From Candidatus Eiseniibacteriota bacterium (GTDB lineage Bacteria; Eisenbacteria; RBG-16-71-46), in NCBI GenBank assembly GCA_016223045.1, contig JACRPT010000108.1:851-39548 (forward strand): 38,698 nucleotides of DNA, in the 5' to 3' direction. The position numbers were made by a program, and so were the translations under genes. Shown piece by piece: positions 3,048 through 38,698 of the stretch (position 1 is its first letter; the number at the start of each line of letters is the position of its first letter). The notes under the pieces were generated by a model. It did no database searches, was not told the origin of the DNA, and saw nothing but the letters and a program-made list of their open reading frames with translations.

Positions 3048-4482
3048 TTGCGGCCTGTGCCTCGGGCAGAGCCAGTTCCTTTTGCACGATGCGCACGCCG
3101 ATGCGCTCGAGGAACTGGTAGGGCGGATTGCCGCCGATGCGGACCACGACGAAGTCGTTCGGCACGATGCGGAGCTGGCCTTCCGCCTCGAGCATCACGC
3201 GGTCCTGCCGGATCTCGCGCACGTGACTCTGGAAGTACACGGTCAGCTTGCCGCGCTCGAGCGCCTGGTCGAACTTCTCCTGGTTGCGCGGCTTCACGCG
3301 CGAGAGCTTCTCACCGCGGTAGGAGAACGTGACCTCGCAGCCGCGCTGGTTCGCGAGCCCGAGGGCCGATTCGACCGCGCTGTCGCCGCCCCCCACCACC
3401 AGCACGCGCGAGTCGGCGAACGCCTCCATCTCGACGATGTCGTAGAACACCCCGGGCAGCTCCTCGCCCGCGACGCCCAGGCGGCGCGGCGTGCCGCGCC
3501 GGCCCATCGCCAGCACCACGCGCCGCGCGCGGAACGCGTGACCCGCGGCGACGAGGCGGAAGCGGTCGCCGTCGGTCGCGATCTCCTCCACCCGGTGCCC
3601 GGTGCGCACGTCGAGCCCGGTGCCGGCGATGACCTGCTCCCACACCTCGAGCAGCTGCTCCTTCGAGGCGTCGGCGACCCACAGGTCGCCGTAGAGCGGC
3701 ACGCGCACCGGCTCGGCGAGCAGCAGCTTGTGACGCGGGTAGCGACGGATGGTGTCGGAGAGGCTGCCCTGCTCGAGGATGACGTAGGAGAGCCCCGAGC
3801 GCAGCGCCTCGAGCCCGGCGCTCAGGCCCGCCGGCCCCGAGCCGACGATCGCCAGGTCGAACACGTCGGGCTCGCCGGCGTCGGGGCGCGGCACCAGTCG
3901 CAGCTCGCGCGCGATGGCCTCGACCGCGACCTTGCCCTCGTTGATGGCATTCTTGATGAGCCCGCGACCGCCCAGCTCGCCGACGATGTAGAGCCCGGCG
4001 ATGTTGCTCTGGAAGTTCGCGTCCAGCTCGGGCGCATCGACGCGCTGCACCGCCGCGCCGCTGGTCAGGACGATGCCGCCGACCGGGCAGGCCGCCGCGC
4101 ATTTCCCGTGGCCCGTGCACTTCTCGAGATCCACCACCGCGAGCTTGTGGACGAGCTTGAGCGCGCCGGGCTCGGGGCACGCGTCCACGCAGGTGCCGCA
4201 GCCCACGCAGACGTCCGCGCGCACGATGGCGTGCACCGGGCCCGCCGGCGCGGCGGCCTCGGTCTCGGCCTCGGCCACCGCGGCGCCCACCAGCTCGAAG
4301 ACCTGCTGGGGCACGCCGCAGCCGCCGCAGAAGGTGGAGCCGGCGGTCACCGGGGTATCGCAGCGCGGGCAGGGACGGACCTCCGCCGCCACGGGCCCGG
4401 AAGCGCCGCGCGCGCGCAGGTGCAGCAGCACCGCCAGCGCGGTGAGCAGCACGAAGGTGAAGGTCGTCATCAGCATGTCCAT
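3037..4482 (-). CDS. membrane-anchored FAD/NAD(P) oxidoreductase with zinc-ribbon and ferredoxin domains
   Basis: 481 residues. Visible in order: an N-terminal membrane anchor (about 5-22); a zinc-ribbon-like motif (C38-P-R-C41 and C52-G-G-C55); a [4Fe-4S] motif C92-V-G-C-G-T-C-V-D-A-C102-P; a second ferredoxin half C122-T-G-H-G-K-C-A-A-A-C132-P in which the usual second Cys is His; a segment with G-L-Y-I-V-G-E-L, as in the C-terminal part of thioredoxin-reductase-like folds; then an FAD-binding G-S-G-P-A-G (about 214-219) and an NAD(P)-binding V-V-G-G-G-D-S-A motif (about 362-369). This fits an NAD(P)H- or quinone-linked electron-transfer flavoprotein. The ATG at 4482 lies 10 bp after the cytochrome-b-like gene, and its Shine-Dalgarno AGGAG overlaps that gene's stop. 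Directionality (oxidising NADH or reducing it) is not determinable here. Confidence 0.85.
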   Translation of the reverse strand: MDMLMTTFTFVLLTALAVLLHLRARGASGPVAAEVRPCPRCDTPVTAGSTFCGGCGVPQQVFELVGAAVAEAETEAAAPAGPVHAIVRADVCVGCGTCVDACPEPGALKLVHKLAVVDLEKCTGHGKCAAACPVGGIVLTSGAAVQRVDAPELDANFQSNIAGLYIVGELGGRGLIKNAINEGKVAVEAIARELRLVPRPDAGEPDVFDLAIVGSGPAGLSAGLEALRSGLSYVILEQGSLSDTIRRYPRHKLLLAEPVRVPLYGDLWVADASKEQLLEVWEQVIAGTGLDVRTGHRVEEIATDGDRFRLVAAGHAFRARRVVLAMGRRGTPRRLGVAGEELPGVFYDIVEMEAFADSRVLVVGGGDSAVESALGLANQRGCEVTFSYRGEKLSRVKPRNQEKFDQALERGKLTVYFQSHVREIRQDRVMLEAEGQLRIVPNDFVVVRIGGNPPYQFLERIGVRIVQKELALPEAQAASAG

Positions 4483-4492
4483 GGGATGTCTC

Positions 4493-5422
4493 CTACCAGA
4501 ACCAGGTCATCCCGGTCGCGATCGCCACGGCCACGTGCACCAGCACCGCCAGCAGCGCGGTCAGCGCCACCGGCCGGTGCCCCACGTGCCAGTAGCCGAA
4601 CACCCGCCGCGCCGCGTCCAGCATGCGCACCTGCTGGTCGAGCCGGATCTCGCGCCGCGCGAGCCGCAGCGCCTCCGCGAGCGCCACGCGGTCGAGCGGG
4701 CGCCTGCCCGGCTCGGGCTTCTCCCACGCGCGCCGGAGCGCGCGCATCGAGCGCGCCCGCGCGAGGTCGTCGAGCACCATGCGCTGGAGGATCCCGAGCG
4801 GCCCGCGCATCGAGGCGGACCGCGGCGTCGCGGCCGCCATGAGCGCGCGCTCGATCGCCGCCGGGTCGCGCCCGGTGGTGAGCGCGATGCGCTTGAGCAG
4901 CGTGCGGCGCTGCTCGGCCGCCTCGTCGCGCGTCAGCTCGGCGCCGTCGCGGCGGCGCGGGATGTGCGCGTAGAGGTAGCGCCCCACCGTGCCGCTCAGG
5001 CTCACCACCAGCATGGCCCAGAAGCCGAGCCCGATCAGGCCTTCGAAGCGCCAGCCGGCGTGCACCGCGACGAACAGCGGGATGGCGAGCCCCGCCACGG
5101 TGTGCACCCGCATCCACCCGCCCACCGAGCCGGTCCACGCCAGCCAGCGCACCTGCTTGCGCAACGGGTAGAGCCACAGGAACAGGAACATCGCCAGGGC
5201 GGCGAGTCCCATGGCCTGGCCCACCGGGCCCGAGGGCTTGAGCAGCGCGTGCAGCGGGTGCCTCATGCGCGCGCCGGTCGCGAGCAGGTAGTAGGGCAGG
5301 CCGCCGAGAGTGACCGCGAGGGGAATGGCAAGGACCACGGCCAGTCCGAGACGATCCGGCGACGAACGGACCGCCCGGGGCCGTGCAAGTTGCACCTGCG
5401 CGGTTGCGGTATTCAGGGCCAT
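4493..5422 (-). CDS. putative diheme cytochrome b-like membrane protein
   Basis: I place the start at ATG 5422 (309 residues). An open frame extends upstream to 5686 but would overlap the divergent arginase gene and encodes nothing recognisable. There are about five membrane segments (about 25-48, 66-87, 104-122, 128-150, 280-303). Two helices carry His pairs with 13 residues between them (H107/H121 and H282/H296), the spacing expected for bis-His heme b ligation, so two b hemes are plausible. A soluble charged stretch (about 155-275) interrupts the membrane part. As first gene of the operon with the flavoprotein and two multiheme cytochromes, it probably passes electrons between the quinone pool and the periplasmic cytochromes. 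Family assignment (ferric-reductase-like or NapC/CbcL-like function) is inference. Confidence 0.75.
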   Translation of the reverse strand: MALNTATAQVQLARPRAVRSSPDRLGLAVVLAIPLAVTLGGLPYYLLATGARMRHPLHALLKPSGPVGQAMGLAALAMFLFLWLYPLRKQVRWLAWTGSVGGWMRVHTVAGLAIPLFVAVHAGWRFEGLIGLGFWAMLVVSLSGTVGRYLYAHIPRRRDGAELTRDEAAEQRRTLLKRIALTTGRDPAAIERALMAAATPRSASMRGPLGILQRMVLDDLARARSMRALRRAWEKPEPGRRPLDRVALAEALRLARREIRLDQQVRMLDAARRVFGYWHVGHRPVALTALLAVLVHVAVAIATGMTWFW

Positions 5423-12671: not shown

Positions 12672-13034
12672 TCAGCGCTCGTTCGCGGCCGAGCTCTGGG
12701 GTTTCACCACCACGCGCACTGCGACGGCGTGGCCGCCCTCCTCACGGTAGTACACCGTGACGCGGGCGTCCTTCTCGATCTCGCCGGTGTTCTTCATCTC
12801 GGCGTGCTTCGAGAACACCATCGTCTTCGGCTGCTTGCCGCGCTTCTCGACCGTGAGGCTGGTCTTGTCGTTCGCGGTGACGTAGCCGGTGAACTGGCGC
12901 GTGGTCTGCTTCGCCTTCGCCGTGGCGGCGGCCACGGGCGCCTTCGCGCGTGCGGCGTGCGCGGGGAGCGCCGCGCCGGCGCCGAGCATCAGGAGCGCCG
13001 CGCACAGGGGAAGGTACTTCCGGCCCTGCTTCAT
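12672..13034 (-). CDS. small secreted protein, DUF5666-like
   Basis: I start at ATG 13034, preceded by a strong GGGAGG/GAGGAG ribosome-binding site, and not at the ATG 44 codons upstream in the longer open frame. This gives 120 residues. A clear signal peptide (K-Q-G-R-K followed by L-P-L-C-A-A-L-L-M-L-G-A-G-A, cleavage after A-H-A at about 26) is followed by a small beta-rich domain: F-T-G-Y-V-T-A-N-D-K-T-S-L-T-V-E-K...V-F-S-K-H-A-E...V-T-V-Y-Y-R-E-E-G-G-H-A-V-A-V-R-V. This pattern resembles the DUF5666-type single-domain periplasmic proteins. Function unknown. The ending is Lys/Pro/Ser rich. Confidence 0.82.
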   Translation of the reverse strand: MKQGRKYLPLCAALLMLGAGAALPAHAARAKAPVAAATAKAKQTTRQFTGYVTANDKTSLTVEKRGKQPKTMVFSKHAEMKNTGEIEKDARVTVYYREEGGHAVAVRVVVKPQSSAANER

Positions 13035-13341
13035 TCTCCTCACCTCCCTTCCTCGCCTCGGGAGCAGGGCGCGCGCAGTCTCGACCCGCGCGCGGGGCAC
13101 GTCAAGGCTTTCGAGCGCGGAAACCGCGGGCGTGAACACCGTGGGCGGGGAGCGCACCGCGTTCACGGAGGAGGTCGGAACCGGCGCGGGTCGCCGGGCG
13201 CCGGGCGGTCGCCGGCGCTGGGTCGCGCTGCACTTCGGCCTGCCGGTCCGGCGGGGAACGCAACGCGACGCCCGGTCGTCGGTGCGGCGGCGCGCCGCCC
13301 CCCGGCTCGACGGGACCGGCAGGGGGCGCGCCGCGGAGGCT
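13035..13341. other. 307-bp gap with a large inverted repeat
   Basis: No gene found. An 11-bp perfect inverted repeat, CCTGCCGGTCC at 13239-13249 with its complement at 13313-13323, encloses further GC-rich hairpins including GGCGGC-GC-GCCGCC. It lies just downstream of the stop of the GAF-Fis regulator (minus strand, ends 13342), so it may act as its terminator. The part nearest 13035 should hold the promoter of the small secreted protein, but no clear boxes are visible. Confidence 0.45.
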
Positions 13342-21744: not shown

Positions 21745-21899
21745 GCCCGGAGCGGGTGGAGGCACCACGCGAGACCGGGCACCCGCGCAAGCGGGTCCGC
21801 TCCGCCTTCCTGGCTCCGCTCACTCCCCGGTTCCCGCGGTCGGCTTTCGAAGCCGACCGCTACCGGGAGTCTCGCTTGGGGCCTCCACCCGCTCCGGGC
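21745..21899 (+). repeat. structured inverted-repeat element, copy 1
   Basis: 31-nt terminal inverted repeats (21745-21775 and 21869-21899, 29 of 31 complementary, first 19 perfect) end inside with GCGAGAC/GTCTCGC. Between them: hairpin ACCCGC-GCAA-GCGGGT (21781-21796), a TTCCTGG loop region (about 21803-21815), and a perfect 11-bp stem 21836-21846/21850-21860 with a 3-nt loop, itself flanked by CCCGGT/ACCGGG. It fills the space between the glycosyltransferase and the hybrid kinase, 8 bp from the latter's stop. The inner core matches the copy at 38363-38511. No ORF. Confidence 0.8.
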
Positions 21900-21907
21900 T
21901 CGGAGAC

Positions 21908-23839
21908 TTACGCGGCTTCGTCGAGCACGTCGCGCACCTTGCGGGTGAACGCGTCGAGCGCGAAGGGCTTCTGCAGGAACGCGGCCTTCGTGGAGGTCAG
22001 GTCCGGGTGGTCGAACGCCGCCTGCGCGTGGCCGGAGAGGAACAGCACCTTCATCCCGCGCCGCCTGGTGGGCAGGTGCTTCACCAGCTCGGGGCCGCCC
22101 ATCTCGGGCATCACCACGTCCGTGACCATCAGGTGGATGGGGCCGGGATGCTGCTCGCAGACCGTGAGGGCTTCCTTGCCGTGGCGCGCCTCGAGCACTT
22201 CGTATCCCGCCAGTTCCAGGGTCTCGCGCACCAGGCCGCGCACCATGTCCTCGTCCTCGACCAGCAGCACGGTCCCGGCGCCGCGCTTGAGCTCGACGCG
22301 CGCCGGCACGCCCGCGGTCGCCTCGACCTCTTCCTCTACGCGCGGCAGGTAGATGCTGAACGTCGTCCCGCGCCCCGGCTCGCTCTGCACCGCGATGTCG
22401 CCGCCGCACTGCCGGACGATGCCGTACACGGTCGAAAGCCCGAGCCCGGTGCCCTTGCCGGCGTCCTTGGTGGTGAAGAACGGCTCGAAGATGTGCCGCA
22501 TGGTCTCCGCGTCCATGCCGATGCCGGTGTCCTTCACGCTCAGCACGACGCAGGGGCCCGGCGCGAGTTCCGCGCAGGCCCGCGGCCCCGCGCCGGCCTC
22601 GGCGTTCGCGGTCTCGACCAGCACGCGCCCGCCGCGCGGCATCGCGTCGCGCGCGTTGACGACCAGGTTCGCGATGACCTGCTCGATCTGCCCCGGGTCC
22701 ACCCGGACCCGGCCCAGCCCCGCGGCCGCGACGGTCTGGAGCTGGATGTCGGCGCCGATCACGCGGCGCAGCATCTTGCTCAGGTCGGCGACCACGTCGT
22801 TCAGGTCCAGCACGCGCGGCTGCGTCGCCTGCTGGCGGCTGAACGCGAGCAGCTGGCGCGTGAGGCCCGCGGCGCGCACGGCGGCCTTGTGGATCTCCTC
22901 GAGATCGCGCTTCGCGGCCGCGTGGACGTCCGGGCGGCGCAGCAGCAGCTCGCTGAAGCCCTGGATCGCGGTGAGCAGGTTGTTGAAGTCGTGCGCCACG
23001 CCGCCCGCCAGGCGCCCGATGGCCTCCATCTTCTGCGAGTGGTGGAGCTGACGCTCGAGCGCCTTCTGCTCGGTGACGTCGATCGCCGTGCCGCCGACGC
23101 GCCGCGCGCCCGAGGGCTCGACGACCGGGAACTTGAGCACCAGCCAGTGGTGCGGCGTGCCGTCCGGCGCGGGCACGTCCTCGTAGATCTGCGTGGGCTG
23201 CCCGCTCTCCAGCACCGCCAGGTCGTGCTCGCGGAGCTGCTGCGCGGTCTCCGGTGGCCACAGCTCGGCGTCCGACTTGCCCCGGATCTGCTCGAGCGTG
23301 GTCTGGAAGAAGGTCTCGAAGGGCCGGTTGACGTAGAGCATGCGGCCGTCCTCGTCCTTCAGGAACGCTACCGCCGGGCTGTTGTCCATGTAGGCCTGGA
23401 AGCGCTCCTGGCTCTCGCGCAGCGCTTCCTCCATCGCACGGCGCTCGGTGATGTCCACGCACGAACCGATGTAGCCGGTGAAAGCGCCCTCGGCGGTGAA
23501 CTGGGGCACCGCCGTGTCCAGCACCCAGCGGTGCACGCCATCGTGGCGGCGCACACGGTGCTCGAGCGTGAACGGCTGCTTCGAGCGGTACGCGAACTCC
23601 GCCATGCCGAGCAGTCGCGCCCGGTCGTCGGGATGCACACCCTGGACCCATCCGTCGCCGGCCACTTCCTCCAGGCGGCATCCCGAGAAGTCGAGCATGG
23701 GCTTGTTGACGAAGGTGCACGCCATGCTCTCGTCCGTGACCCACAGCAGCACCGGCGTGCCGTCGGCGAGGCTGCGGAACCGGTGCTCGCTCTCGCGCAG
23801 CGCCGCCGCCGCCTGTTCCGCGTCGCGCGCCCGGACCTG
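21908..23839 (-). pseudogene. PAS-PAS-histidine kinase-receiver part of a frameshifted hybrid sensor kinase
   Basis: Reading from the frameshift near 23839 gives 643 residues that continue the protein begun at 24897. In order: a short coiled linker R-A-R-D-A-E-Q-A-A-A-A-L-R-E-S; two PAS/PAC domains, each ending with the S/T-C-V-D-I-T-E-R or T-A-I-D-V-T-E-Q type motif; the phosphoacceptor G-G-V-A-H-D-F-N-N-L-L; an HATPase domain (N-L-V-V-N-A-R-D-A-M, D-T-G-I-G-M-D, G-T-G-L-G-L-S-T-V); and a C-terminal receiver with L-L-V-E-D-E-D, phosphoacceptor D-V-V-M-P-E-M-G-G and the conserved Lys in Q-K-P-F. The sequence is fully conserved across the break, so the shift is recent or a base-calling error. 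In-frame upstream starts (24154) read through the wrong frame. Confidence 0.85.
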
Positions 23840-24897
23840 AGGCTCGCCGCCATCGCGTCCAGGGCGCAGCCGAGCTGGTCCAGCTCGTCGCCCTTCCCGG
23901 ACATCCCGGTGCGCGCCGCCAGGTCGCCGCGGCTGATGCGCTCCGTGGTACTCGCCAGCGCATCCATGCGCCGCAGGATGAAGAGCTTCGCGCCCGCCCA
24001 GGCTGCGAGCAGCGCCAGGACCAGCACCGCCGCCAGCACGAGCAGGCTCTGCCGCAGCACGCGGTCGGCCCGGGCGTACGCTGCGTCGCGCGACAGGCCG
24101 AACGCCACGTAGGCGCTGGCCTCGGGTCCGCCCGGGATCGGGTTGAAGCTCCACAGCCGCGTCACTCCGTCGAGGCCGCGCACCACCGCCGTTCCGGCGC
24201 CCTGCGCGAGCACCGCGCGCACCGAAGGCGCCTCGGGCAGCAGGCGGCCCACCCAGCGCTCGGGCTCGGGATAGCGCGCGAGGATGACGCCGCGGCGGTC
24301 CACCACCATGAGCGCCGCGCCAGCGGGCAGCTCGGTGCGCGCCGCGTAGCCGTTGAGATAGCCCAGGTCGATCGCGGCGAACACGACCCCGCGCATCCGG
24401 CCCCCCGCGTCTCGCACCGGGCAGGCCACGTTGAGCGTGGCCCTGCGCGTGACGCGGCCGATCTGGTAGCCGCCCACCACGAAGCCGCGCTGCGCGAGCG
24501 CGCGGCGGAACCAGCCGCGGTCGGAGAGGTCCATGCGGCCCGTGAAGGGGACCCCGCTCGCGACCAGGTGGCCGTCCGGCGCCACCAGCCCCAGGTTCGC
24601 GTAGGTCGGATGCTCGCGGAGCAGGTTCGCGAAGATCGCGCTTGAACTCCCCGCGCGCTCCTCGCGCACCTCAGGCAGGTGCGCGAGCGCCACCAGCAGC
24701 TGGTTCGCGCTCGCGATCGTCTGCTCGATCGAAGCCGAGGTCAGGCGGGTGAGCCGCTGCGCCTCGGCATGCGCCTGCTGAGCCGCCATGCGGCGCTGCT
24801 CGAAGCCTGAGTAGAGAGCGAGCCCCGCCGCCGGCAGCAATGCGAGCAGCGCCAGGCAGAGCAGGCGCAGCCTGAGGCTGGAGAAGAATGACGACAT
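23368..24897 (-). pseudogene. Cache-TM-HAMP part of the frameshifted hybrid sensor kinase
   Basis: From ATG 24897 the first 353 residues are real: an N-terminal membrane helix (about 10-28), a dCache-like periplasmic ligand domain (I-E-Q-T-I-A-S-A-N-Q-L-L...L-S-D-R-G-W-F-R-R-A-L...A-C-P-V-R-D-A-G-G-R-M-R-G-V-V), a second helix (about 285-308) and a HAMP domain with R-M-D-A-L-A...R-G-D-L. At 23836-23845 the frame is lost: the tail from about residue 354 to the stop at 23368 is Arg/Ser-rich out-of-frame sequence. One missing base there (for example CTGCAG for CTCAG) would join it to the frame ending at 21908 and restore one protein of about 996 residues. Confidence 0.85.
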
Positions 24898-36858: not shown

Positions 36859-38314
36859 CGCCGCGCTGCATCCGGACGGCGCGAGCCCGGCGCCGGACGG
36901 CGAGCGGCTCGCCAGCGTCGGGCCGGCGTTCCTGGTGCGCTTCTCCGCGCTGCTGCGCACCGCGCGCACCTACGACGTCTCGAACGACGCCTTCCGGCAC
37001 CAGCTCCAGGACTTCATGACGCTGCTGCTGCGCATGCTCGAGGACGAGGACGAGGTCGCGCTCGCGGTGGTCGCCGACTACTTCTACCTGAACGGCGTGC
37101 GGCTCAGGGCGCAGGCCTCGCTGCTCGCCGTCTACCACGCCCTGATGGGTGAGTTCGAGCGCCGCGAGCTGGGCGGCGTGCGCTTCCTCCACGGCGTCAG
37201 TGCCGCCGAGACGGAGCGCTTCCTCCAGCTCTTCATGGCCGCCGAGAGTCCGGCGATGGCGGAGCGGCTGCCGGAGGCGACCCTCGAGGCCCGCATCGAG
37301 CACATCGTGCCGGTGCACGCGATGGACCTGGACCGCGAGGACCTGGTGCGCGCGCTCGACGCGGAGCACACCCCGGCGAGCGAGCGCGGGCGCGCCAAGC
37401 GGGTGTTCTGGCGCGCGGTGCTCGGCACCAAGAAGGTCGTGGTGCGCGCCGCGCAGACCGGCCGCCCCGACCTGCGCCAGGCCAAGCGCCTGGTGCAGCC
37501 GGTGGTGGACAGCATCATGAAGAACGAGTACTCGATCGTGGGGCTCACCGCGCTCAAGGACCACGACGAATACACGTACGCCCACTGCGTCAACGTGAGC
37601 GTGCTCTCGGTAAGCATGGGCCAGTCGCTGGGGCTCAAGCGCCAGACGCTCGCCGACCTCGGCGTGGCGGCGCTGCTCCACGACATCGGGAAGGTCGCAG
37701 TGCCGGGCGAAGTGCTGCGCAAGCCCGGCAAGCTCGACGCGAACGAGTGGACGATGATCCGCCGGCACCCGCTCGAGGGCGTGAAGATGATGTTCCGCAT
37801 GCCGGGGCTCAACGGGCTCACGCTCGATTCGATGCGCGTGTGCCTCGAACACCACATGAACTTCGACCGCACCGGGTACCCGGACGTGGCGCACGCGTGG
37901 GGGCAGGCGGCGATGTCGCGCATCGTGGCGGTGGCCGACGTGTTCGACGCGATGACCGCGCACCGCGCGTACCAGAAGCGTCCGCTCTCGCCGTTCGAGG
38001 CGCTCCAGAGCCTGCTGGGGCCCACGCGCGTGCAGTTCGACCCGGCGGTCCTGTGGGCGCTGGTGAAGACCGTGGGTCTCTACCCGGCGGGCTCGGTGCT
38101 CCACACCGCGTCGAACCACGTGGTGCTGGCGATCAGCCCGAATCCCGCCGACCCGCGGCGCCCGCACTGCCGCGTGCTGGTGCGCCCGGACGGCACGCCC
38201 GTCTCGGAGTCCGCCGAAGAGACCTGGGACCCGATGCCCGGCGCCGAGAGCGTGACCCGCGTCCTCGCGCCCGAAGAACTCACGGTGGACACGCAGGAGC
38301 TGCTCGCGGCGTAG
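36851..38314 (+). CDS. HD-GYP domain protein, probable c-di-GMP phosphodiesterase
   Basis: 487 residues from ATG 36851, overlapping the HEAT gene (ATGCCTGA). The N-terminal domain (about 20-130, R-T-A-R-T-Y-D-V-S-N-D...F-L-H-G-V-S-A-A-E) matches the neighbour's. The HD-GYP domain is at about 220-400: Y-A-H245-C-V-N, L-L-H277-D278-I-G-K-V-A-V-P, R-R-H306-P, E-H334-H335-M-N-F-D339-R-T-G-Y-P344. All metal ligands and the GYP are present, with M-N-F-D-R-T in place of the more common E-R-x-D-G-x. Likely hydrolyses cyclic di-GMP, perhaps steered by the HEAT scaffold. No receiver or membrane segment, so input is probably by protein contact. A C-terminal beta segment (about 415-487) ends it. Confidence 0.92.
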   Translation: MPDAALHPDGASPAPDGERLASVGPAFLVRFSALLRTARTYDVSNDAFRHQLQDFMTLLLRMLEDEDEVALAVVADYFYLNGVRLRAQASLLAVYHALMGEFERRELGGVRFLHGVSAAETERFLQLFMAAESPAMAERLPEATLEARIEHIVPVHAMDLDREDLVRALDAEHTPASERGRAKRVFWRAVLGTKKVVVRAAQTGRPDLRQAKRLVQPVVDSIMKNEYSIVGLTALKDHDEYTYAHCVNVSVLSVSMGQSLGLKRQTLADLGVAALLHDIGKVAVPGEVLRKPGKLDANEWTMIRRHPLEGVKMMFRMPGLNGLTLDSMRVCLEHHMNFDRTGYPDVAHAWGQAAMSRIVAVADVFDAMTAHRAYQKRPLSPFEALQSLLGPTRVQFDPAVLWALVKTVGLYPAGSVLHTASNHVVLAISPNPADPRRPHCRVLVRPDGTPVSESAEETWDPMPGAESVTRVLAPEELTVDTQELLAA

Positions 38315-38362
38315 GCCGCGACCGGAACTCGCGGCAGGTTGTTCAGCACCGTGCCCGGGGCC

Positions 38363-38511
38363 ATCGCGGCAGGCCCCCTCGGCGAGACCGGGCACCCGCG
38401 CAGCGGGTCCGGCGCCGCCATCCTGGCGGCACCGGAGCTCCTCGTCGAAGCGCTCCGGGCATCCTGCCCTCCGCACTCGACGAGAGTCTCACCGAGGGGG
38501 CCTGCCGCGAT
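38363..38511 (+). repeat. structured inverted-repeat element, copy 2
   Basis: 26-nt terminal inverted repeats (38363-38388 and 38486-38511) match at 25 of 26 positions, ending inside with GAGAC/GTCTC. Inside: CCCGCGCA-GCGGG hairpin (about 38394-38408), hairpin GCCGCC-ATCCT-GGCGGC (38414-38430), and a long stem CTCGTCGA (38441-38448) / TCGACGAG (38477-38484) holding GGGC-ATCCT-GCCC (38457-38469). It starts 49 bp after the HD-GYP stop. The inner core is homologous to copy 1 while the terminal arms are unrelated in sequence. Confidence 0.82.
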
Positions 38512-38561
38512 TGCCCTTCAGCGCTGAAACGACCTGCGGCGAGTCCCGTGCAGCGCCGGGA

Positions 38562-38698
38562 ATCGGGATAGGGGAGCGCGGGTATTCCCCGCGCTTCCCC
38601 TCCCACACCACCGGACATGCGGGTCCGCATCCGGCGGTTCGATGGTTCAGCGACCAGTCAGGCGCGGGACGCCGAGCTGGTCGAAGTACGAGGTCGGC
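38562..38698 (-). mobile_element. 3' end of a group II intron (domains V and VI), partial
   Basis: Read on the minus strand after the reverse transcriptase stop: a domain V-like hairpin, ACCGCCGGA (38638-38630), inner stem TGCG-GACC-CGCA, 2-nt bulge, TCCGGTGGT (38615-38607). This is the classic 9-bp stem/bulge/distal-stem layout. It is followed by a domain VI-like hairpin: basal GGGA (38604-38601)/TCCC (38568-38565) with a TA bulge (A at 38569), above it GGGG-AAGCGCGGGG with loop AATA and CCCGCGCTCCCC. The 3' end is probably ...CCCGAT at 38562, with the bulged A seven bases before it. The rest of the intron is beyond the right edge. Confidence 0.82.
38647..38698 (-). CDS. group II intron reverse transcriptase/maturase, C-terminal end only
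   Basis: The last 16 codons before a TGA at 38647-38649 read P-T-S-Y-F-D-Q-L-G-V-P-R-L-T-G-R, the kind of ending seen in intron-encoded proteins whose stop lies just upstream of domain V. The open frame continues past the window edge. The call rests mainly on the flanking domain V/VI structure. Confidence 0.7.
   Translation of the reverse strand, partial: PTSYFDQLGVPRLTGR

Follow-up and report, generated by a model that had tools for sequence, protein, structure and literature searches.

The terminal inverted repeats of a MITE family are common to all of its copies. REP units are 20-40 bp in length, carry a GTAG or CGTC tag, and lie preferentially between convergent or tandem genes, close to their 3' ends (PMC3733652). 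REPINs are REP doublets that form hairpins, in which the spacer varies with compensatory changes (PMC3116915). The HUH Y1 systems IS200/IS605 and TnpA-REP recognise imperfect hairpins and insert without target duplication (PMC6006769).

The stretch of DNA analysed here (the window, 38,698 nt in full) carries two copies of what is probably a REP/REPIN- or MITE-like palindromic DNA repeat, mobile but non-autonomous, of one Candidatus Eisenbacteria family. Similar to REPINs, the elements are short, extragenic, dispersed and non-autonomous, and take the form of a long hairpin of smaller imperfect hairpins with a partly variable, compensating stem. However, REPIN ends are conserved and their spacer is variable, whereas the Eisenbacteria element has a conserved centre and variable, paired outer arms. 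Mobile palindromes similar to REPs would thereby be extended, in reversed layout, to a phylum of which little is known. The elements are about 140-190 nt long and in this also differ from the tagged REPs. REP tags were not enriched at 144 arm ends (GTAG 1.4%, GTGG 2.1% and CGTC 6.9%, against 1.9%, 7.5% and 7.3% in the control) or, as judged by eye, at the feet of the inner hairpins. Hairpin recognition and duplication-free insertion as in IS200/IS605 would fit, and the family has a largely single-copy Y1-fold gene. In contrast to these systems and to REP/REPINs, we found no cognate RAYT with the repeat on its flanks, and the sole Y1 gene lies by lexA, is unflanked by elements and has arginine for the catalytic tyrosine. 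The length, inverted-repeat structure, intergenic position and absence of coding capacity recall MITEs and ERIC, but the arms are mostly copy-specific. Because the GTAG/CGTC tag, conserved ends, a cognate RAYT and shared terminal repeats are all missing, we filed the elements as a variant of mobile palindromic repeats, outside the REP/REPIN and MITE families proper.

Structure of the window copies and the family core

Each copy is a long hairpin, in which complementary arms enclose a conserved centre of two smaller hairpins, or three in the window (Table 1). The sequence-only reading had placed two elements here, and both were confirmed with fold z values near -10 that none of 200 shuffles equalled (DNA parameters for copy 1, RNA parameters for copy 2). 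Its arm length of 31 nt held for copy 1, but the 26 nt given for copy 2 was too short. The arms of copy 2 also measured 31 nt (38358-38388/38486-38516), and in both copies they are 94% complementary. GAGAC and GTCTC surround several hairpins in both copies. The string GAGACCGGGCACCCGCGC is common to the two (at 21771 and 38384), a pair that alone is within chance at 3 mismatches (at least two matches in 16 of 100 shuffles). Copy 1 lies directly 3' of a hybrid kinase gene (21908-24154, minus strand) and is antisense to that neighbour. The same opposite orientation had been claimed for copy 2, which instead lies 44 nt downstream of an HD-GYP gene (plus strand, ending at 38314) and on the same strand.

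Table 1. Coordinates of the two window elements, their parts and the lexA-linked gene
Feature	Position	Strand	Basis or remark
Element copy 1	21745..21899	+	Inverted repeat, fold z -10.4, covariance-model match
Copy 1 left arm, GAGAC box (21771-21775) at its end	21745..21775	+	94% complementary to 21869-21899
Copy 1 extra hairpin CGGGCACCCGCGCAAGCGGGTCCG	21776..21799	+	Among family copies, in three of the window's genome only
Copy 1 core hairpin A, TTCCTGG loop, TCC/TCC flanks (CTCCGCCTTCCTGGCTCCG)	21800..21818	+	Motif common to family
Copy 1 core hairpin B (CCCGGT...ACCGGG)	21826..21867	+	Consensus structure with paired changes
Copy 1 right arm, GTCTC box (21869-21873) at its start	21869..21899	+	Inverted repeat
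Element copy 2	38358..38516	+	Inverted repeat, fold z -9.8, covariance-model match
Copy 2 left arm, GAGAC (38384-38388) at its end	38358..38388	+	Inverted repeat
Copy 2 extra hairpin CGGGCACCCGCGCAGCGGGTCCG	38389..38411	+	Consensus-structure comparison
Copy 2 core hairpin A (GCCGCCATCCTGGCGGC)	38414..38430	+	Consensus structure and fold
Copy 2 core hairpin B (CTCGTCGA...TCGACGAG), inner GGGCATCCTGCCC hairpin	38441..38484	+	Consensus structure and fold
Copy 2 right arm, GTCTC (38486-38490) at its start	38486..38516	+	Inverted repeat
Y1/HUH-fold gene by lexA, ~150 aa	G000:C75 ~4403-4861 (L298:1404-1862)		Relatives L257-L266, L301-L307

Across the family, 74 aligned rows (two of which probably represent one locus assembled twice) follow the plan of arm, GAGAC-like box, hairpin A, hairpin B, GTCTC-like box and arm. 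The GAGAC/GTCTC-like pair often encloses the core. Two hairpins whose loops carry TCC(N)TG form the general core, and this motif was present in 68 of the 72 cores scored. With conservation this high, the cores might also have a function.

The hairpin that had been read as the conserved core (GGGCACCC...GGGTCC, or GGGCACCCGCG..GCGGGTCC in its short form) is not the core of the family and turned out to be a local extra, carried in the window's genome by the two window copies and one on contig C1, and by a second element type in G014, a relative within the same family. This second type (L036 and L038, from G014:C92 and C187) is longer, has CTAGGCTGC...GCAGCCTAG-like arms and carries the GGGCACCCGCGCAAGCGGGTCC hairpin. 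Judged from the sequences, the occurrence of the GGGCACCCGCGCAAGCGGGTCC hairpin in two element types looks as if modules had been swapped between repeat families. The GGGCACCCGCG..GCGGGTCC hairpin was also found alone at L035 (G017:C76:5979-5999) and L037 (G000:C40:34054-34075), and one of these lone hairpins sits just 3' of an apparent tRNA gene. Another dispersed repeat, with ends CTAGCCCGGTCTATTCATGA...TCATGAATAGACCGGGCTAG (L191:2322-2525 and 12973-13155 in G000:C164; L186:17539-17725 in G001), is common to two genera.

Distribution and insertion of the elements

More than 75 such hairpins make up a dispersed repeat family within a single Eisenbacteria family of soil bacteria. A covariance-model search of the genome and its relatives, as envisaged in the sequence-only reading, recovered further copies with compensatory changes. 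The first model, built from three copies of the window's genome, matched four copies there and others in eight related genomes, 13 of these in G006. The second, built from 13 G006 copies and one from the window's genome, had matches in 17 of the 20 genomes of the same family (E≤0.01), and copies found by BLAST in G019 brought the carriers to 18 of 20. With 150 candidates scored per genome in this family, the copy counts are lower bounds. They ranged from 0 or 1 per genome to about 28, the second model giving at least ~28 copies in G006, while the two models pooled gave at least seven distinct loci in the window's genome. In 27 genomes representing other families of the class, a search with stricter filters gave no match at E≤0.001 (71 candidates scored).

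Like REPs, the elements are dispersed, palindromic and mainly extragenic. According to gene calls from a simple codon-usage script, 33 of 73 copies lay between tandem genes, 23 between convergent and 7 between divergent genes, while 6 fell within called ORFs and 4 at the edges of contigs. Convergent sites thus outnumbered divergent ones (two-sided binomial P ~0.005), and the layout agrees with that of REPs. Effects on adjoining genes, if any, would be secondary. Nothing in the comparisons made hinted at a tie to the signalling genes that the sequence-only reading had remarked on.

The location of copies at gene 3' ends, the strong fold with covariation and the conserved loops would also suit a structured RNA. 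Candidates would be a small RNA, a stabiliser of mRNA 3' ends, or a terminator that keeps its loops while the closing stem varies, for example as a minus-strand target of the CsrA type with a GGA loop. We consider this quite improbable, however. In tandem pairs the elements showed no clear bias to either strand with respect to the gene upstream (18 vs 15). The T-tract that follows the short GC hairpin of an intrinsic terminator was found at 2 of 144 ends, compared with 2 of 413 in the control. No element matched Rfam at the curated threshold, where the matches were a nearby group II intron end and a tRNA in a relative. Slow compensatory evolution alone, moreover, would not be expected to give unrelated arms on near-identical cores. 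With neither a strand preference relative to genes nor an Rfam match, the earlier guess of a small RNA found no support. More generally, covariation within a dispersed repeat need not imply a functional RNA. The group II intron 3' end (domains V-VI) lies at 38562-38639 on the minus strand, about 45 nt from copy 2, and runs off the contig.

One clean empty site was resolved, for the copy at G001:C25. In all six relatives compared (G016, G013, G004, G018, G008 and G003, three of them congeneric), the flanking genes abut or overlap, and neither the core nor either arm is present. This indicated that the whole hairpin was inserted and that its arms are not target DNA. The sequence-only reading had also pointed to target-site duplications, and none was present at this site. 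Its suggestion that the element might be REP/BIME-like, or mobile and non-autonomous, gained support from the many copies, the empty site in six relatives and the preference for gene 3' ends. The empty site also makes it most improbable that the arms are by-products of the target, produced when the flank is copied in inverted form at insertion or when the core jumps into pre-existing palindromes. Most copies do have unique arms and shared cores, as such a process would predict, but the first route is contradicted by the absence of either arm at this one empty site. For the second, suitable palindromes were rare: in the 366 kb of G006 surveyed, nearly all stems of at least 16 bp that enclosed a loop of 200 nt or less were parts of elements (the survey also took in G000 and G001).

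The gene pair at copy 1 is adjacent in G010:C87, where the 165-nt gap lacks the element. This is weaker evidence of an empty site because the gap aligns poorly. CTAG occurred by one end in six of seven G001 copies, but near the ends of all copies taken together its frequency was 13%, compared with 9% for ordinary gene ends, which does not support it as a general target. A phage origin was rejected, as no phage match was obtained and core matches in viral contigs were due to chance. Plasmid matches were weak and short, and a plasmid origin was likewise discarded. A second inverted repeat close to one of the G001 copies (L185:10184-10308, G001:C23) was set aside as a candidate element: it is conserved, lies between divergent genes and resembles a promoter. 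With its orthologues (L252-L255) it spans five genomes, and its conserved inverted repeat (TTGGACGG...GGTTTCA / TGAAACC...CCGTCCAA) looks like a two-way ECF-type promoter.

The lexA-linked HUH protein

The elements would be mobilised in trans by a putative transposase that recognises their core, probably in the form of single-stranded hairpins. A Y1_Tnp search over the window's family and the 27 other genomes found no transposase for the elements. Most genomes of the family had a single full-length match, while G006 had two weaker ones, G016 an extra fragment and G007 none. Outside the family, weak matches appeared in 3 of 27 genomes. The gene adjoins lexA at nearly all loci inspected. Alignment against solved TnpA structures showed that the HUH motif is kept, and that an invariant arginine occupies the position of the catalytic tyrosine in ISDra2 TnpA and its relatives. 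Without this tyrosine the protein alone should not act as a transposase, and a catalytic RAYT was therefore rejected as the mobiliser. The gene is frameshifted in G006 (L299). The lexA-linked protein may instead be a hairpin-binding host protein, and its occurrence over the same family range as the elements could reflect shared descent of both traits. In a lexA-near relative from G020 (L308), the HUH motif is lost too.

Pairing and history of the arms

Double-sided changes were present in 15 of 16 arm pairs in the G006 set, and the covariation score was 0.267, compared with 0.106 after shuffling (0 of 500 as high). Six of the eight pairs of the GAGAC helix were invariant in this set. Over the 10 nt just inside the model ends, the arms paired at 0.91 with their own partner and at 0.52 with a swapped one, left arms of different copies were 0.39 identical, and pairing weakened 10-20 nt farther out. 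That the arms change yet stay paired, as first read from the window, was thus upheld. The accompanying explanation, selection on structure and not spread of a repeat, posed a false choice, for the element spreads and its arms are unrelated even on near-identical cores.

Pairwise comparisons separated the arms from the core. In G001, the cores of L241 and L243 agree at 97%, and those of L244 and L245 are 0.94 alike; the arms of both pairs are unrelated (0.56, with shuffled G006 arms giving a baseline of 0.48). L185 and L240, in contrast, share both core (0.96) and arms (0.88), and their compensatory differences lie in blocks. Some subsets of copies do have arms in common. Left arms of G006 copies were 0.28-0.39 identical outside the core, and core and arm similarity were nearly uncorrelated (Spearman 0.12). 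An orthologous copy in G016 and G013 showed compensatory changes within hairpin B, and its outer arms were perfect in one species and decayed in the other. These comparisons indicated that arms change in place, and also that copies differ in their arms where the core is almost identical.

PMC8794818 describes template switching as creating and maintaining hairpins. During replication, such switching would hold both arms of the element complementary, while arms and cores would be reshuffled through recombination, or arms remade on transposition. We suggest tentatively that only the core might be heritable, with new arms, derived from neither target nor parent, made at each transposition or by strand-switch replication soon after it. 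It seems unlikely, on the other hand, that the hairpins are mostly old, with gene conversion homogenising the cores of each genome, arms drifting under template-switch correction, and new insertions rare. The decoupled histories of arm and core, the orthologous copy retained in G016 and G013, the paired arm changes in blocks in G001 and the reported part of template switching all agree with such concerted evolution. Rarity of insertion, however, sits poorly with a G001:C25 copy missing from every relative compared and with copy numbers that differ so widely between genomes. For mobile hairpins, the more than 75 copies form a natural set in which template switching, selection and transposition can be compared as sources of arm origin and upkeep.

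Tandem partial copies of one arm lie beside an element at L181:15843-16102 (G001:C23), with a period of about 40-55 nt, and also at the right flanks of copies in L179 and L178 (G014). These partial direct repeats beside several copies fit replication slippage or switching.
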